From: Cyanobacteriota bacterium
GTDB taxonomy: Bacteria > Acidobacteriota > Vicinamibacteria > Vicinamibacterales > UBA2999
Length of the DNA: 64,000 bases
Direction of reading: 5' to 3'
NCBI GenBank assembly: GCA_019752015.1
Contig: JAIEMQ010000003.1
Span: 1 to 64,000, forward strand
The notes below the pieces were generated by a model. The model had not been told where the DNA came from. It worked only from the letters and a program-made list of their open reading frames with translations, and ran no database searches. Both the position numbers and the translations under genes were made by a program. Positions 126-38,789 of this stretch are shown in pieces (the first letter of the stretch is position 1; each line of letters opens with the position of its first letter).

Positions 126-715
126 ATGTCGACCGCCACACATGTTCGCCAGCACAACAGCATCCTTGCCGGTGCGGAAAAACGCACGCTGATCTGGATT
201 GCCGAACGGCTGCCGCGCTGGATCAATTCGGATCATCTGTCGGCGCTCGGGCCTGGCGGCCATGGCCGGCGCCGGCGCGTCGTTCGTTATTGCCGGGACG
301 GATCCCGTTGCAGGCGCGTCACTTGTAGTGCTGTGCTTGATCCTCAACTGGTTGGGCGACAGCCTCGACGGCACGCTCGCCCGCGTCCGCGATCGGCAGC
401 GGCCGCGTTACGGCTATTACGTCGATTACGTTATTGATCTCGCCGGCACCGCCCTGCTGTTTGCCGGTCCGGCGATGTCGGGATACATGTCACCGATGAT
501 TGCCACGCTCGTGGGGGCCAACCGAGCTGCGCATCCTGATGGCGGCCGGCGCGATCGCGCTGATCAATACGCCGACGGTCGATCCGTTCGGAATCGGCGC
601 GATCCGCTTGTGGGATCTTGGCGGCGTGATCGGCGCGGTCGGCATGGTGATGACGTTCGTGATCACCTCGGCGCGGAACGTGCGCGCGTTGTATATCGAG
701 GAGACGCGCCGATGA
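126..715 (+). pseudogene. CDP-alcohol phosphatidyltransferase, two frameshifts
   Basis: This is a membrane enzyme family that transfers a phosphatidyl group from a CDP-alcohol to an alcohol acceptor. Reading starts at ATG 126 after an AGAGGAG ribosome-binding site, in frame 3. After the residues DHLSALG it must move to frame 1 near 248-251, in a GGG run. It moves again to frame 2 in the GGGGG run near 510-515, and ends at TGA 713-715. Across these shifts the family motif is intact: DSLDG, then AR, nine residues, G, three, D, three, D. Hydrophobic segments follow. Both shifts are one extra G in a G run, which fits sequencing or assembly error as well as real decay. The stop overlaps the GtrA start (ATGA), so the two genes are probably coupled. 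Confidence 0.75.
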
Positions 716-1902
716 AGCGTTTCGCGCGATTTGCCGTCGCGGGCACGGGTGGCTTCGTCGTCCAGGTCGGGATGCTGGCCGTCCTCAACTCGATCCCTGG
801 CGTCCATTACCTGGTGGCCACGGCGATCGCGGTCGAAGCCGCGATTCTGTCGAACTTCGCCTGGCATTACCGCTGGACGTGGCGAGACCGCGCCGGGTCG
901 TGGGTCGATCAACTGATCCGGTTCAACGCGCTCAATGCGATTACGTCGATTTGCGGGAGCATCTTTCTCACCGCGCTGTTCGTCGAAGTAGTAGGGTTGC
1001 ATGTTGTGACCGCGAACATTGCCAGCGTCGTCGCCCTGTCGGTGATCAATTTCATCGGCGCCAATACGCTCGTATTCCGTGCCGCGGCTTCGATTGCGGT
1101 CGTGATGCTGGCGGCGTCGGCGTCCTCCGCCCAGGCGTCGAACCTGGAAGCGACGCTGCAGGCGAAGACGGCTCGCGACTTCGCGAAATACGTCGCGGCC
1201 GTGGAGGCGCGCAGGGCGCGTGAGATCGAGAAGCAGGAACCGTTTCTGGACATCGAGCGGCTGTCGCCCGATCAGCGCGCGAAGGCATTTGCGGCGTTGA
1301 AGCGCGGCGAGGTGATCGTCACCCGCGGCGCCGCCTACGACTCGGGCACCAACGAAATCGCGATCGACGGCGGCCTCGTCAATCACTGGCGCGGCACCGT
1401 GTTCGTGCCGAAGGTGAAGCTGGAGAACCTGCTGAAGGTGCTGCAGGAGCCGCAAACCGACAAGCACAAGCAGGAAGACGTGCTGTCGTCGAAAGTCGTG
1501 TCGCGCGACGGCGATTCGCAGAAGGTCTACCTGCGGCTGCGCCGGACGAAGTTCGTCACCGTCGTCTACGACACCGAATACGACGTCGACTATTTCAGGC
1601 TGTCGCCGGAGCGCGCCTACAGCAACAGCATTTCGACGAAAGTCGTCGAGATCGAAAATGCCGGCACGCCGAAAGAGCGGGCGCTGCCCGAAGGTAACGA
1701 TCACGGCTACATGTGGCGGCTCAATTCGTACTGGCGCTACAAGCAGCACGAGGACGGCGTGCTGGTCGAGATTGAATCGCTGACGCTGAGCCGCGATCTG
1801 CCGGCGATCATCGGGCCGCTGATCCGGCCGATTGTGAACAGCACCGCGCGGGAATCGATGACCCGGACGCTCGCCTCGGTGCGGGCGCGGTTCATGAGTT
1901 AA
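712..1902 (+). CDS. GtrA-family membrane protein fused to a secreted SRPBCC-like domain
   Basis: Residues 1-123 are a complete GtrA/DPMS-like domain with four predicted membrane helices and the usual NFxGANTLVFR ending. This family takes part in moving polyprenyl-linked sugars for cell-surface glycans. Residues 124-142 then read like a signal peptide (a hydrophobic stretch ending AQA). Residues 143-396 match in style a secreted acidobacterial family of about 250 residues, START/SRPBCC-like, with a conserved GYMWRLNSYWR segment. An internal ATG at 1105 (with GTG at 1102) could start the second protein separately, but no stop separates them. As a fusion, the fifth helix would place the second domain outside the cell. 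The gene overlaps the upstream phosphatidyltransferase by 4 bp. Confidence 0.75.
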   Translation: MKRFARFAVAGTGGFVVQVGMLAVLNSIPGVHYLVATAIAVEAAILSNFAWHYRWTWRDRAGSWVDQLIRFNALNAITSICGSIFLTALFVEVVGLHVVTANIASVVALSVINFIGANTLVFRAAASIAVVMLAASASSAQASNLEATLQAKTARDFAKYVAAVEARRAREIEKQEPFLDIERLSPDQRAKAFAALKRGEVIVTRGAAYDSGTNEIAIDGGLVNHWRGTVFVPKVKLENLLKVLQEPQTDKHKQEDVLSSKVVSRDGDSQKVYLRLRRTKFVTVVYDTEYDVDYFRLSPERAYSNSISTKVVEIENAGTPKERALPEGNDHGYMWRLNSYWRYKQHEDGVLVEIESLTLSRDLPAIIGPLIRPIVNSTARESMTRTLASVRARFMS

Positions 1903-1934
1903 CCGACCGGAGGTCCGTCCAGCATAATAGCGGG

Positions 1935-4163
1935 ATGAAGACTGACCTGGCGGGCCTCGAGCTGACGGAGCTCGAAGCGTTCGTCCAGTCGCTCGGCCAC
2001 AAGAAGTTCCACGCCAAGCAGATCTACCACTGGATCTGGAAGCGCGGCGTGACGGACTTTGCCGGGATGACCAATCTCAGCCGCGAGCTGCGCGCCGCGC
2101 TGTCGGAAAAGGCGATCGTCTCGCTGCCGGAAGTCGTGCAGCACCAGGTCTCCGAGGACGGCACCCAGAAATTCGTGCTGCGGCTTGCCGACGGCAAGCA
2201 GATCGAATCCGTCTTCATTCCCGACACCCCGAAGCAGACCTTCTGCGTATCGACGCAGGTCGGCTGCGCCATGGGCTGCGCCTTCTGCCTCACCGGCAAG
2301 ATGGGATTGATTCGCCACCTCTCGGCGTCCGAGATCGCCGGGCAGGTCCGTCTGCTCGCGCGCTCGCTCGATCTCCTCGACAAGTCCTTCAACATCGTGC
2401 TGATGGGCATGGGCGAGCCGCTGCAGAACTACGACAACACGATGAAGGCAATGCGGATGCTGAACGAGAAGGAAGGGCTCGACATGCATCCGAAACGGGT
2501 CACGCTGTCGACGGTCGGCCTGGTGCCGCAGATGGACAGGCTCGCGCAGGAAGAGCTGATGCCGAACCTCGCGGTGTCGCTGCACGCATCGAGCGAAGAC
2601 GTCCGCGCCTCGATCGTGCCGCCGAGCAGGAAGTACACGATGCAGGACGTGATCGACGCCTGCAAGCGCTTCCCGCTCTCGAAGCGCCGCCGCATCATGT
2701 TCGAGTACGTGATGCTGGCGGGCGTCAACGATTCGGACGAGGATGCGCGCAGGCTGGTCAAGGTATTGGCCGGCGTCAAGGCCAAGGTCAACCTGCTGCC
2801 GCTCAACGCCGCGCCCGGCATACCGTTCGAGCGGCCGTCGGATGAGCGCATCAACACGTTCGCGAAGATCCTCGCCGGCAAGGGGCTGATGGTCTCGGTG
2901 CGCAAGAGCCGCGGCCGCGATATTCGCGCGGCATGCGGGCAGTTGATCGTCGAGGGCCAGTCGAACAGGAAATCAGCTGCGCAGAAACTCGCTTCAGCAC
3001 TGGTGTTGCTCTTGATGGTTGCCGGTTGCGCCAGCGAGCCGCAGTCCTGGACCGCGTTGCAACGCAGTGTCAGCGGTTCCGGCGACACGGCTCAGAAAGA
3101 CGCGGTCATCGAGAAGTTCATCGCCAGCAAGGGCGGCACGCCGATCGTTGAAAACCAGACGCGGCTGATCTTCCTGGTCAAGGACAAGAACGGCCAGACC
3201 CCGAGAATTGTCGGCGACTTCAACAACTGGGCGGCAACACCGCAGGGCGGCTACGACGCCACGATCGGGACGACGAAGCGCATTGAGGGCTCGTCGTGGT
3301 CGTATCTCGAGGGCAAGTCGTATACGAACGCGCGCCTCGAGTACGGGTTTCTGTACGACAAGGAATACGCGACCGATCCGATGAACAAGCGGACGGTGCA
3401 GGCATTTGCGGGGCCGCGTTCAGAAGTGCGGATGCCGTTCTGGGTCGCACAGCCCGAAGTCGATGAGTCAGGTTCCGCGCCAAAGGGCGAGCTGATCGCC
3501 GAATCATTTCAATCGCGTTCGCTCGGCGGCACGCGGCGGGTGTGGTTCTACCTGCCTCCGGGATACGCATCCAACAAGGACGCGTTGTATCCAACGATGT
3601 ACGTTCTCGACGGTGCGAACTACGTCGGGAAGATGGACGTGCCCAGGGTCCTCGATCACCTGATCTCGAACAAGTCGATCCCGCCGGTGATCGCGGTGTT
3701 CTCGGAGCCGGCCGATCGGCAGGAAGAGTATTCGCGCAACCCGACATGGCGCGCGTTCATCGCCAACGAGCTCGTGCCCGCGGTCGACAAGCGATTTCGA
3801 ACATTCCCGACACCGGATCACCGCGTAATTCTCGGCAGCTCGCTGGCCGCTTATGGCGCGATCGATCTTGCCGTCGCCGCGCCGTCGGTGTTCGGCCTCT
3901 GCGCCGCCATCGCGCCGCCGGTGCAGACGGCGACCATCGTCTTGAATCAGCCGGCCGCGCGCGCCTCAGTGGTCTCAATCAGGTTTTTCGTCATGGGCGG
4001 CGTCTACGACGCGATGATTGACGGCGCGCGCCTGCTGCGGACCACGCTCGACGGATATCAAGCGCCGGTGACGTACCTCGAAGTTCCGGAAGGTCACAAC
4101 ACGAACACGTTCAGGGCGCATCTCGATGATGCGTTAAAGGCGTTATTGCCGTCAGGGTCGTAG
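1935..4163 (+). CDS. rlmN: 23S rRNA/tRNA adenine-C2 methyltransferase RlmN fused in frame to a lipoprotein esterase
   Basis: Residues 1 to about 336 are a full RlmN: a radical-SAM CAMGCAFC cluster motif, GMGEPLxNYDN, and the C-terminal catalytic cysteine in AACGQL. RlmN methylates A2503 of 23S rRNA and A37 of tRNA. The frame then continues without a stop into a basic and hydrophobic stretch ending LMVAGC, a lipobox with Cys at about residue 365. Next come an E-set/CBM48-like segment ([11 protein letters not shown]) and an esterase-D/enterochelin-esterase fold with GSSLAA as nucleophile motif and a late EGHN histidine. TTG at 2943 is a plausible separate start for the lipoprotein. A cytoplasmic RNA enzyme joined to a lipoprotein makes little sense as one chain, so two products or a lost stop codon are likely. 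The 3' end overlaps purD (convergent) by 12 bp. Confidence 0.85.
2943..4163 (+). other. Secreted esterase segment of the RlmN fusion (possible separate gene)
   Basis: This is the lipoprotein-esterase part of the fused frame, read from TTG 2943. The signal has a basic NRK start, an LVLLL core and the AGC lipobox. The mature part would be about 375 residues with an N-terminal sugar-binding-like beta domain and a serine esterase domain (GSSLAAYG nucleophile elbow). The family hydrolyses esters in the periplasm or at the outer membrane; the substrate cannot be told. No strong ribosome-binding site precedes TTG 2943, so translation may depend on coupling to rlmN. Confidence 0.5.
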
Positions 4164-7200: not shown

Positions 7201-8478
7201 TTGGCACGATCTAAGGTCGCATTAGTCAAGACGACGCCGGCGACGGTCCGCAGGGACACGCACGCCGTGATGAACCTGGCCGGGTATCAGGACGTCCTCG
7301 CCAAGGACGCCGACACCGCGCTCAAGGTCAACATCTCCTGGCATTTCTTTTTTCCGGGTTCCTCCACGACGCCGTGGCAGCTCGACGGCGTGATCCAGGC
7401 GATGAAACAGGACGGCTACACGCCGGAGCTGATTCACGCCTGCCACAACCGCACCGTCGTCATCGACGCGCATCTTGGCGAAGCCGAGAACAAGCAGCTG
7501 CCGGTCGTGCAGGCGCACGGCCTGCGCAACATCCATCTCTATGAAGGCAACGAGCCGTGGATCAACGTCCGCGACGCCGTCGGCGATCTCGCGGACAGGT
7601 TCCTCTGCCTGAACGACGTCTACCCCGACGGCTTCATGATTCCGAAGCGCTTCATCGGCGAGAACATCCTGCACCTGCCGACGGTGAAGACGCACGTGTT
7701 CACGACGACGACGGGCGCAATGAAGAACGCGTTCGGCGGCCTGTTGAACGAGAAGCGGCACTGGACGCATCCGGTGATCCACGAGACGCTCGTCGATCTG
7801 CTGATGATCCAGAAGAAGATTCACCGCGGCGTCTTCGCCGTGATGGACGGCACGTTCGCGGGCGACGGTCCCGGCCCGCGCTGCATGGTGCCGCACGTCA
7901 AGAACGTGATGCTGGCGAGCGCCGATCAGGTGGCGATCGATGCGGTGGCGGCGAAGCTGATGGGCTTCGATCCGATGTCGATCAAGTACATCCGGATGGC
8001 GCACGACCTCGGGCTCGGCTGCGGCGATCCGCGCGACATCGAGATCGCCGGCGATCCGGACGCGGCGAAGGAGAACTGGAAGTTCGTCGGCCCGTTCCAG
8101 AAGATGACCTTCGCGGCGCGGATGCAGCACAAGATTTACTGGGGACCGATGAAGAAGCCGATCGAGTGGTCCCTGAAGACGGTGCTGGCGCCGTGGGCCT
8201 ACATTGCCAGCGTCATCTATCACGACAGTCTGTGGTACCCGCTCAACGCGGAGAAATACATTCACTCCGTCCTCGGCAGCGAATGGGGACGGCTGTTCGA
8301 GAACTGGGAACGGCTCACACCGGACGTCAACGGCTTCCCGGAAGTCGGGGAAGCGCCGGCCGCAATCACGCGCGCCGGCATGCACGCGTTCAAACAGTCA
8401 CTGGGGATTCTCGGCACCTGCATCAAGGAAGCGCCCGAGTTCGGCCACAGAAAGCGCAGAAAGCACAGACCCGCTTGA
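7201..8478 (+). CDS. DUF362-domain protein
   Basis: This 425-residue soluble protein matches DUF362: LKVNISWHFFFPGSSTTPWQ near the start, then HLPTVKTHVFTTTTGAMKN and the GPGPR segment. No ferredoxin-like cysteine cluster is visible, unlike DUF362 proteins that carry 4Fe-4S domains. The start is TTG 7201 with an AGAGG site just upstream, 7 bp after the previous stop. Function is unknown; context is cell-surface glycan synthesis. The last codons are written by a 9-bp repeat and give a basic tail (HRKRRKHRPA). Confidence 0.8.
   Translation: MARSKVALVKTTPATVRRDTHAVMNLAGYQDVLAKDADTALKVNISWHFFFPGSSTTPWQLDGVIQAMKQDGYTPELIHACHNRTVVIDAHLGEAENKQLPVVQAHGLRNIHLYEGNEPWINVRDAVGDLADRFLCLNDVYPDGFMIPKRFIGENILHLPTVKTHVFTTTTGAMKNAFGGLLNEKRHWTHPVIHETLVDLLMIQKKIHRGVFAVMDGTFAGDGPGPRCMVPHVKNVMLASADQVAIDAVAAKLMGFDPMSIKYIRMAHDLGLGCGDPRDIEIAGDPDAAKENWKFVGPFQKMTFAARMQHKIYWGPMKKPIEWSLKTVLAPWAYIASVIYHDSLWYPLNAEKYIHSVLGSEWGRLFENWERLTPDVNGFPEVGEAPAAITRAGMHAFKQSLGILGTCIKEAPEFGHRKRRKHRPA
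8446..8472. repeat. Three-copy 9-bp array at the end of the DUF362 gene
   Basis: Units CACAGAAAG, CGCAGAAAG and CACAGACCC run through the last codons of the DUF362 gene. The same order of units occurs at 11220-11246, and a related 8-bp version at 31493-31524. Confidence 0.8.
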
Positions 8479-8509: not shown

Positions 8510-9637
8510 ATGAGCGACTTTCAAATCCGATCCGAATCGGTCGACGTCGAGCAGATCATGAAGCAGATCCGCCAGCGCATCCTCGAGAAGCGCGGCGCCG
8601 ATTACACCGAAGAGCAAATCCGCGAGCTGGCGTCGGTGCGGCTCGAGAAGTTCCTCGATCCGAACAACCTGCGGTCGGACCTGCTGGAACAGTTCCGCAA
8701 GAGCCGTCCGGCCACCAGCAGCGAGCCGGCGGCGATTACGCCGCCCTACACGGCGGAGCAGACCGACATTTTCGCGACCCACCGCGGCAGCGTGCGCTTC
8801 CTGCGCAAGCTGTTCGCGCCGATCCTGAAAATGATGTTCAACGCCAACACGCTGCACCAGGTGCTGCACACGCAGGCGCAGTTCAACGTCGACCTGCTGA
8901 AGCGCGAGTCGCGCCGCAAGATCGAATTTGATCGATCGCGCGCCGAGTGGAACTCGCTCTACTACGAAGTGCTGCACAACCTCGTGCTTGAAACCACGCG
9001 GATGGGCATCGAAGTGCAGAACCTGCGCATGAAGCTCGAATCGCTCTCGAGCCGGCTTGATTTCAGCGAGCGGCGCGTCCGCGCGCTCGAAGGAGTCGTG
9101 CAATATCGGCCGGAAGTCGTGCGCGGAGCGGACAGGCAGGATGAGGACGAGACGGGTGCAACGGGTGTATCTGGTGCGTCGGGTGGATCGGGTGCGTCAG
9201 GTGCGTCGGGTGCGTCGGGTGCATCGAGTGGATTCGAAGGGTTCGTTCCCGGCGGTGGCGGTCAGCAAGGACAAGGCGATGGGTCCGGCAAGCGGCGCCG
9301 CCGCCGTCGTCGCGGACGCAGAAGTGGTCAGGGAGGTCAGGGTGCCTCAGGTGCCTTGGGTGCCTCGGCTGCCTATGGTGCTCAGGGTGGCCAGGGTGGA
9401 CAGGGAGCGCAGGGTGCTGGGCCGCAGGACGCTGACGCATTTGAAGCCGGCGAAAACGGCGCCGACGAAGGCGACGAATTCGAGAACGGCGAGGAAATGA
9501 GCGCCGGCGGCTTCGACGTCCCGGAACCAGTTGAGGAAGCGGCAGCACCCCAGGCACCCCAGGCACCCTTACCTGAGGTGCCGTCGATTCCCGATACGCT
9601 CAAGACGCCCGAGCCGGGCGACGACGACGTGCAGTGA
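8510..9637 (+). CDS. Coiled-coil protein with long Gly/Ala/Ser low-complexity tail
   Basis: The protein has 375 residues. Residues 1 to about 205 are charged and helical with coiled-coil character (QIRQRILEKRG at the start, later an LRMKLESLSSRLDFSERRV heptad stretch). From about 210 the sequence becomes disordered: repeated GAS/GSG tripeptides, a run of arginines (KRRRRRRRGRR), GGQGAQ repeats and an acidic end. The underlying DNA has tandem 9-bp units, which keep frame. I do not recognise the family. It lies between the DUF362 gene and the first glycosyltransferase and overlaps the latter by 4 bp, so it probably works with the glycan machinery, perhaps as a scaffold. Confidence 0.7.
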   Translation: MSDFQIRSESVDVEQIMKQIRQRILEKRGADYTEEQIRELASVRLEKFLDPNNLRSDLLEQFRKSRPATSSEPAAITPPYTAEQTDIFATHRGSVRFLRKLFAPILKMMFNANTLHQVLHTQAQFNVDLLKRESRRKIEFDRSRAEWNSLYYEVLHNLVLETTRMGIEVQNLRMKLESLSSRLDFSERRVRALEGVVQYRPEVVRGADRQDEDETGATGVSGASGGSGASGASGASGASSGFEGFVPGGGGQQGQGDGSGKRRRRRRRGRRSGQGGQGASGALGASAAYGAQGGQGGQGAQGAGPQDADAFEAGENGADEGDEFENGEEMSAGGFDVPEPVEEAAAPQAPQAPLPEVPSIPDTLKTPEPGDDDVQ

Positions 9638-11252: not shown

Positions 11253-12476
11253 ATGTCCGTCGCAATTCACCAGGTGCTCGCGACGCTTGGCTATGGTGAT
11301 GCCATCGGCCACGAAGTGCTGGGCATTCAGCGCGTGCTGCGTGATGCTGGATACGAGTCGGAGATCTTCGTGCAGACCGCGGATCCGCGGCTCGAGCACC
11401 TGACGCTCGACTATCGCGATCTGAACGATGCGAGCCATCCCGACAACATCCTGATCCATCACTTCTCGATCGGCTCTCGAGCCTCGCGCATGGCGTATGC
11501 GCTGCCCGATCGAATGGTGCTGGTCTACCACAACATCACGCCGCCGGAATATTTCGTGGACGTCAACAAGGAGCTGGTGCGGCTCTGCTTCAGGGGCCGG
11601 CGCGAGCTGGCGCTCTACAAGTCACGCTGCGACCTGGCGCTCGGTGATTCCGAGTACAACCGACAGGAGCTCGAGGCGCTCGGCTTCTCACCCACCGGCG
11701 TGCTCGACGTCGTGCCGGGATTCGATCATCTTCGCGGCCCGGCCGATTACACGTTCGCCGCCGCGTACGACGACGACTGGGTCAACCTGCTGTTCGTCGG
11801 CCGCGTCATCCCGAACAAGCGGCTCGAGGACGTGATCCGCTTTTTTCACGCCTACAAGACGTGGTTCAATCCGCGTTCCCGGCTGCTGCTCGTCGGCGCG
11901 CATTCAGGCTTCGAGCGCTACCTGTCGCTGCTCCACAACTTCATCGCGAAGATCGGCGCGAAAGACGTCCATCTGGTCGGCCATGTCTCGAACGAAGAGC
12001 TCGTCGCCTACTACGAGCTCGCCGACGTGTTCGTGTGCGCCAGCGAGCATGAGGGTTTCTGCGTTCCGCTGATCGAATCGTTCCACGAAGGTGTGCCGGT
12101 GATCGCCTATGCGGCCACGGCGGTGCCGTCGACAATGGATGGCGGCGGCATTCTGTATACGGACAAGGACCCGATGCACGTGGCCGGGCTGATCAACGCA
12201 ATCGTCGACGATCACGCGCTTGCCGATGGCATTGTCGACGGGCAGTACGAGGCGCTCGATCGATTGATGGCCAGGGACTTTGCCGGCACCCTGCTCCGTC
12301 ACGTCGAGAACGTGCTGGCATCGCCGCGCCGTGCGCATCCGCCAGTCGCTTTTGATTTCTGGGATCAGGCCGACGCCGCCGAGGAGTACGACGAAATCAA
12401 GGCGTATCGTCCCGCGGCGTTTCACGCCTTGCCGCCGGAACCGGGAACCGGGAGCCGGGAGCCGGGAACCGAATGA
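11253..12476 (+). CDS. GT4-type glycosyltransferase
   Basis: This 407-residue GT-B enzyme has an N-terminal acceptor half with HHFSIGSRASRMAYALPDRMV and YHNITPPEYF. The donor half has LLFVGRVIPNKRLEDVI and the loop ASEHEGFCVPLIESFHEGVPVIAY. It closely resembles the next gene in layout, so the two are probably old duplicates acting on successive sugars. The C-terminal dozen residues (PEPGTGSREPGTE) are written by a CCGGGAR heptamer array. The stop overlaps the next start (ATGA). Confidence 0.88.
   Translation: MSVAIHQVLATLGYGDAIGHEVLGIQRVLRDAGYESEIFVQTADPRLEHLTLDYRDLNDASHPDNILIHHFSIGSRASRMAYALPDRMVLVYHNITPPEYFVDVNKELVRLCFRGRRELALYKSRCDLALGDSEYNRQELEALGFSPTGVLDVVPGFDHLRGPADYTFAAAYDDDWVNLLFVGRVIPNKRLEDVIRFFHAYKTWFNPRSRLLLVGAHSGFERYLSLLHNFIAKIGAKDVHLVGHVSNEELVAYYELADVFVCASEHEGFCVPLIESFHEGVPVIAYAATAVPSTMDGGGILYTDKDPMHVAGLINAIVDDHALADGIVDGQYEALDRLMARDFAGTLLRHVENVLASPRRAHPPVAFDFWDQADAAEEYDEIKAYRPAAFHALPPEPGTGSREPGTE
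12435..12471. repeat. CCGGGAR heptamer array at a glycosyltransferase 3' end
   Basis: A short CCGGAA unit, then CCGGGAA, CCGGGAG, CCGGGAG, CCGGGAA and a partial unit. It ends 2 bp before the next start codon and is read as coding. The reverse-complement family appears at 27645-27680 and inside eno at 30596-30630. Confidence 0.85.
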
Positions 12477-38694: not shown

Positions 38695-38784
38695 TTTTAC
38701 TTTTTACTTTTTACTTTTTACTTTTTACTTTTTACTTTTTACTTTTTACTTTTTACTTTTTACTTTTTACTTTTGCCTTTTGCC
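38695..38784. repeat. TTTTTAC array, ten copies plus two TTTTGCC
   Basis: A partial TTTTAC, then ten perfect TTTTTAC units (38701-38770), then TTTTGCC twice. The last two belong to the AAGGCAR family on the other strand, so the array joins two families. It fills the gap between the PilB-like stop (38790-38792) and the J-domain start, both on the minus strand. Confidence 0.96.
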
Positions 38785-38789
38785 TTTTC

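Follow-up and report, generated by a model that had tools for sequence, protein, structure and literature searches.

The window analyzed here is a stretch of 64,000 nucleotides from a genome deposited as Cyanobacteriota bacterium and placed by GTDB in the Acidobacteriota, order Vicinamibacterales (assembly GCA_019752015.1, contig JAIEMQ010000003.1, positions 1 to 64,000). Near its beginning lie two neighboring frames, 712-1902 and 1935-4163, each open throughout and each running from a complete first domain through an export-type hydrophobic stretch into a second domain. The features of this locus, all on the plus strand, are the following:

126..715, +, broken CDP-alcohol phosphotransferase gene (three tblastn pieces in three frames; DNA alignment with the relatives G001, G002, and G005)
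712..1080, +, GtrA domain with four helices, complete to a conserved VFR (PF04138, E 2.2e-20; AF2 helices)
1081..1137, +, GtrA-START joint, signal-peptide-like, AAASIAVVMLAASASSAQA (sequence; same place in G001 and G002; AF2)
1141..1899, +, START/SRPBCC-type domain, predicted to lie outside the cytoplasm (AF2; Foldseek/VIA)
1900-1902, +, stop codon TAA of the GtrA-START frame
1935..3002, +, rlmN, complete native protein (TIGR00048; own-genome search; C-terminal alignment with relatives)
3003..3026, +, RlmN-esterase joint, lipoprotein h-region and lipobox VLLLMVAG (comparison with relatives)
3027..4160, +, esterase, enterochelin-esterase-like (PF00756), from the lipobox cysteine (profile match)
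4161-4163, +, stop codon TAG of the RlmN-esterase frame

A preliminary description of this DNA had proposed that the first frame joins GtrA to a signal-peptide-like segment and an SRPBCC-like domain, and the second joins RlmN to a lipobox and an esterase; profile matches, an AF2 model, and a fold search bear out both compositions. The GtrA part matches its Pfam model over the whole domain (residues 6-122, profile positions 1-117 of 117), with modeled helices at residues 2-26, 33-57, 64-94, and 98-121. The RlmN part scores 401.5 bits against a TIGR00048 cut-off of 290 over residues 2-344 and, by comparison with relatives, reaches the native protein end at Leu-356 (codon 3000-3002); a search of the genome found no other rlmN. 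The esterase part carries a VAGC lipobox, would take its n-region from the RlmN end, and matches PF00756 with an E of 8e-26 (profile positions 1-153 of 251). The earlier placement of the GtrA join is upheld at about 1080-1084, whereas that of the RlmN join shifts from 2940-2950 to about 3002, where native RlmN ends.

The AF2 model of the whole GtrA-START chain has a mean pLDDT of 89.4, with values mostly above 90 from residue 151 on. Foldseek and VIA-align matched the second domain to 3qsz (Z 14.5, residues 195-396, 159 residues aligned at 2.8 A) and to the START domains of CERT, MLN64, and STARD4 at Z of about 12 (residues 162-396), the MLN64/STARD3 structure 1em2 giving Z 12.3. START domains, which belong to the SRPBCC superfamily, are described as a helix-grip fold with an N-terminal helix and extra strands (PMC2577659), and the model contains each of these elements. 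Profile methods were less informative. Polyketide_cyc2 (PF10604) was matched by 10 of 53 members (best E 3.1e-5), PF01852 was absent from the 17 families that these members gave up to E 1 (a range where HMMER filtering removes most matches weaker than about 0.1), no well-fitting Pfam or NCBIfam model for the domain was found, and the START alignment, searched by sequence alone against solved structures, returned nothing credible. As modeled, the second domain is a START-like fold of lipid-binding type, for which we claim no membership in PF01852.

Whether the first frame is a real dual-domain protein, as the preliminary description had allowed, was addressed by looking for a stop codon in relatives, and for GtrA-START that reading holds. 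Across 60 genomes (the window's own and 59 relatives), near full-length, stop-free matches to the 396-residue protein occur in two members of the genus (G001 at 72%, G002 at 71%), with an identical join residue in all three, and further stop-free matches occur in members of the family or order (G047, G010, G044, G015, G038, and G050). Fused genes in one open frame were found in at least 30 of 193 genomes of the class, spanning seven families (23 as a single match and 7 as two pieces of one frame), and in at least three genomes outside the class (G256, G275, and G438) among 396 drawn from the phylum; these counts are lower bounds because only part of the candidates per genome was scored. Frames checked at the fetched class loci place both domains between the same two stops. 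Left out of the count were G186, where the domains share a frame yet form two separate open frames, and G163, where a contig end cuts the locus and no GtrA match is present. Loci from named genomes, mostly Acidobacteria, include nine fusions among the best 80 of 249. In G424 and G466, GtrA and START share a frame interrupted by a single TGA, with START having its own ATG. On these comparisons GtrA-START is a genuine, conserved fusion. A mobile origin was considered and rejected: plasmids gave no match to the fusion, and the 32 viral stretches matched by a START-part pattern encode no relative. Among the papers searched, none mentions GtrA together with a START domain, with SRPBCC, with lipid transfer and fusion, or with CDP-alcohol phosphatidyltransferase and Acidobacteria.

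To follow how the fusion arose, 151 distinct START copies were fetched, a non-random sample in which 34 are fused, 10 lie on the same strand within 400 nt of a separate GtrA gene (a limit that excludes slightly farther genes, for example at L128 and L124), and the other 107 fall in neither group. On a quick-method tree of 91 of these copies, comprising 65 that are fused, GtrA-adjacent, or near the CDP enzyme plus 26 drawn from the rest, the fused state changes at least 13 times, and at least six changes are forced by starred branches. We read the fusion as one that evolved repeatedly in Acidobacteria. Separate genes, genes in the same frame with one stop, and loose in-frame joins were found across the loci, and tight joins, in which the hydrophobic core immediately follows VF(R), are also present among the fused copies. 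At L109 (5392-7900), a fused gene is directly followed by a stand-alone START copy.

Within the genus, G005 lacks the GtrA part yet still carries, in frame, the leader and the joint's FRA, which leads us to infer that the fused arrangement came first in this genus. START remnants persist in G003, G004, and G006, and nothing of the module was found in G007 or G008; as read from these remains, the module is decaying in these members. In length, the window's own START branch (0.19) roughly equals the G002 branch (0.17; G001 0.08, G005 0.29) and therefore gives no clear sign of decay. Two arrangements were noted in passing. At L170 (G004, 7336-7701), remnants of the CDP-alcohol enzyme and START merge after deletions. 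At L234 (G186, 400-2040) and L124, a GtrA that breaks off past profile position 95 stands in a row with an isolated piece of a START C-terminus and one complete START, which is another decaying or rearranged copy of the module.

The gene just upstream of gtrA, whose TGA at 713-715 overlaps the gtrA ATG at 712, is one unbroken match in G001, G002, and G005; DNA alignment with these genomes shows that the window's copy has a 1-nt insertion near 252 and an 83-nt deletion near 515. The middle piece of the broken gene scores 19.4 bits against a PF01066 cut-off of 22, an intact relative scores above the cut-off, and among solved structures an intact copy comes closest to choline/ethanolamine phosphotransferases (E 1e-5 to 4e-4). 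Of the fetched START copies, 25 of the 34 fused, 9 of the 10 GtrA-adjacent, and 21 of the 107 others have a CDP-alcohol phosphotransferase within 2.5 kb, all lower bounds as many loci end short. A glycosyltransferase was rejected as the GtrA partner: a scan of 19 genes at five loci, one of them the CDP-alcohol gene, gave no match to a GT2 (GtrB-like) enzyme, and the usual partner is the CDP-alcohol phosphotransferase. With the gene for this enzyme broken, the module may be nonfunctional in this genome.

How the two domains of GtrA-START are disposed in the membrane can be judged from the distribution of charge. Across the 34 fused proteins, K+R values per segment from the N- to the C-terminus are 1.88, 0.47, 5.53, 0.18, and 1.74, so positive charges lie before helix 1, between helices 2 and 3, and after helix 4. 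Both ends of GtrA should thus be cytoplasmic and the START domain outside. The joint AAASIAVVMLAASASSAQA begins right after VFR and has no n-region of its own. Joint statistics were taken over 24 of the 34 fused copies (those whose START domain aligned from its first positions) and 113 stand-alone copies. A strict AxA rule is satisfied at 19 of the 24 joints, where shuffled linkers lead one to expect 14.5 and 3 of 200 shuffles reach 19; among stand-alone copies, AxA stands at the expected place in 77 of 113. In the window, G001, and G002 the AxA of the joint sits too far upstream to pass the strict position test. Joint hydrophobicity (KD19) is 1.72, compared with 1.88 for GtrA helix 1 and 1.68 for stand-alone signal peptides; neither this value nor joint length discriminates the joint from signal peptides or GtrA helices, and both AxA and joint hydrophobicity are weak discriminators.

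On these values the joint may or may not be cut. A plausible reading, to which we would give a little less than an even chance, is that GtrA-START is a stable, uncleaved five-helix protein in which what was once a signal peptide now anchors the chain permanently and START acts while still attached to the flippase. In its favor, the hydrophobicity of the joint is close to that of GtrA helix 1, and MLN64/STARD3, whose START domain the fold search recovered, offers a precedent in its layout of tethered helices plus START. Against it, the AF2 model gives the joint only 12 helical residues at low confidence, as compared with 24-31 for the GtrA helices, and small residues at -3/-1 are somewhat enriched.

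The second frame has a different history. The genes for RlmN and the esterase are neighbors in 12 relatives, with an ATGA overlap of stop and start in five of them, and a stop codon separates the two in all 12 relatives with a readable joint (G008 was excluded because its contig ends there). The lost stop codon that the preliminary description had offered as one explanation fits this pattern. Between the same codons the window is, by hand count, a net 41 nt shorter than G001 and G002, and the stop, start codon, and n-region of the relatives are gone while the lipobox is kept. G001 and G002 encode this n-region in 9-nt GGTGCC units, of which the window joint has none. Tandem 9-nt arrays of the same type as those at the relatives' joints do occur elsewhere in the window, at 9153-9230 (CGGGTGCAT) and 9339-9398 (AGGGTGCCT), which makes slippage or deletion plausible at the RlmN joint. 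The join is private to this genome and looks like a small deletion, with an assembly error at this join alone also possible. Other repeats were noted alongside: the RlmN C-termini at L010 and L011 (G006 and G007) extend into 9-nt repeats, so that lengths vary between relatives, and the window carries many 7-nt tandem arrays, at 38695-38788 and at 12437, 14782, 27645, 30148, 30596, 60447, and 63637, one of which has 11 perfect TTTTACT units.

The joined frame could nevertheless encode a working two-part protein, in which an internal signal anchor leads to lipidation at Cys-365 and a signal peptidase II cut frees RlmN with a short hydrophobic tail. The sequence offers a charged NRKSAAQK ahead of the h-region and an intact VAGC lipobox, both parts are intact, and no other rlmN was found in the genome. 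We nonetheless regard such a protein as unlikely, since the join has no second example among the 12 relatives read, and RlmN is not known to be essential in E. coli. In addition, in-frame ATG (2889), GTG (2898), and TTG (2943) codons lie inside conserved rlmN codons upstream of the joint, and the lipoprotein may thus have a start of its own.

The preliminary description had allowed for internal starts at both joins, and while they are conceivable for RlmN-esterase by virtue of these codons, the idea fails at the window's GtrA join, where no ATG, GTG, or TTG lies between the GtrA end and the hydrophobic core. A start scan of the fused proteins found no such codon with a charged n-region ahead of the hydrophobic core in the window and 24 others of the 34; for three of these 25 (L160, L186, and L188) the core was placed wrongly by the script, leaving 22 of 34 as safe start-free copies. 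In start-free copies, then, translation probably yields the exported domain solely within the fusion protein. The opposite reading, that START is made from its own internal start and the fusion is a read-through by-product of an open frame, draws on the remaining 9 of 34 frames, in which an internal ATG followed by a charged n-region would allow a reading as two genes, and on the single-TGA arrangement in G424 and G466. Set against the start-free majority, we consider it improbable.

That both window joins are assembly or sequencing errors is very improbable: the insertion and loss in the gene just upstream and the private nature of the RlmN-esterase join would suit such errors, but G001 and G002 share the GtrA-START join to the residue. 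The preliminary description had called two such joins in a row unlikely by chance. A common cause was considered and rejected, as the GtrA join is old and shared with relatives and the RlmN join is private; the pair is a coincidence that needs no common cause.

Taken together, we think it likely that GtrA-START is a true fusion, a membrane protein with an internal export signal, and that RlmN-esterase is the product of a separate, private deletion. In the former, a four-helix GtrA with both ends in the cytoplasm would present its C-terminal VFR as the charged n-region of a built-in signal-peptide-like stretch. Judging from sequence, this stretch would place the START-type domain outside, where it may be tethered or, by analogy with FbcH, released by signal peptidase I. 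In the latter, a small deletion would have joined rlmN to the neighboring esterase gene, and the remaining lipobox could let lipoprotein processing separate RlmN from the esterase. When two proteins become fused time and again, this speaks strongly for their acting together. For GtrA proteins, whose substrates are uncertain, the attached lipid-binding-type domain and the frequent CDP-alcohol phosphotransferase neighbor name a testable lipid route. We propose, as a proposal only, that the CDP-alcohol enzyme makes a lipid, GtrA moves it, and START receives it, a route that would lead to the outer face of the inner membrane.

Comparison with known systems places these proteins as follows. GtrA/GtcA proteins are described as putative flippases of undecaprenyl-phosphate sugars or lipid-linked sugars (PMC7389260). 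The window protein, flippase-type by family, shares their four-helix domain with a full Pfam match but differs in its attached, exported domain of lipid-binding type and in having a CDP-alcohol phosphotransferase as usual partner, with no GT2 enzyme found at the five loci. The second domain shares its fold with the START lipid-transfer domains of CERT, MLN64/STARD3, STARD4, and bacterial 3qsz; unlike them it lacks a PF01852 match, is predicted to be exported, and is joined to GtrA. Dolichol monophosphate mannose synthase (5mlz, E 4.7e-10) likewise contains a GtrA-like membrane domain within a fusion, although there it lies behind the enzyme domain, at residues 255-367, whereas here the exported domain follows GtrA. 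A parallel in layout is FbcH of Bradyrhizobium, a cytochrome b/c1 polyprotein in which a multi-helix protein leads into an internal signal sequence and then an exported domain. GtrA-START repeats this order, and an exported domain behind a signal stretch without its own start is present in the start-free copies, including the window, and absent from the other nine; the proteins are unrelated, and cleavage of GtrA-START is proposed only. The arrangements seen, from separate genes through a shared frame with one stop, then loose and tight fusion, to loss of one domain, form a natural series for the origin of bacterial polyproteins. More speculatively, and with low confidence, we hypothesize that Acidobacteria have repeatedly made polyproteins from neighboring gene pairs by losing the stop, start, and n-region, with maturation through signal peptidases; GtrA-START would then be the established case, a flippase that itself supplies the periplasmic lipid carrier and is made next to an enzyme dedicated to lipid synthesis, and the RlmN-lipoprotein a fresh case in one lineage.
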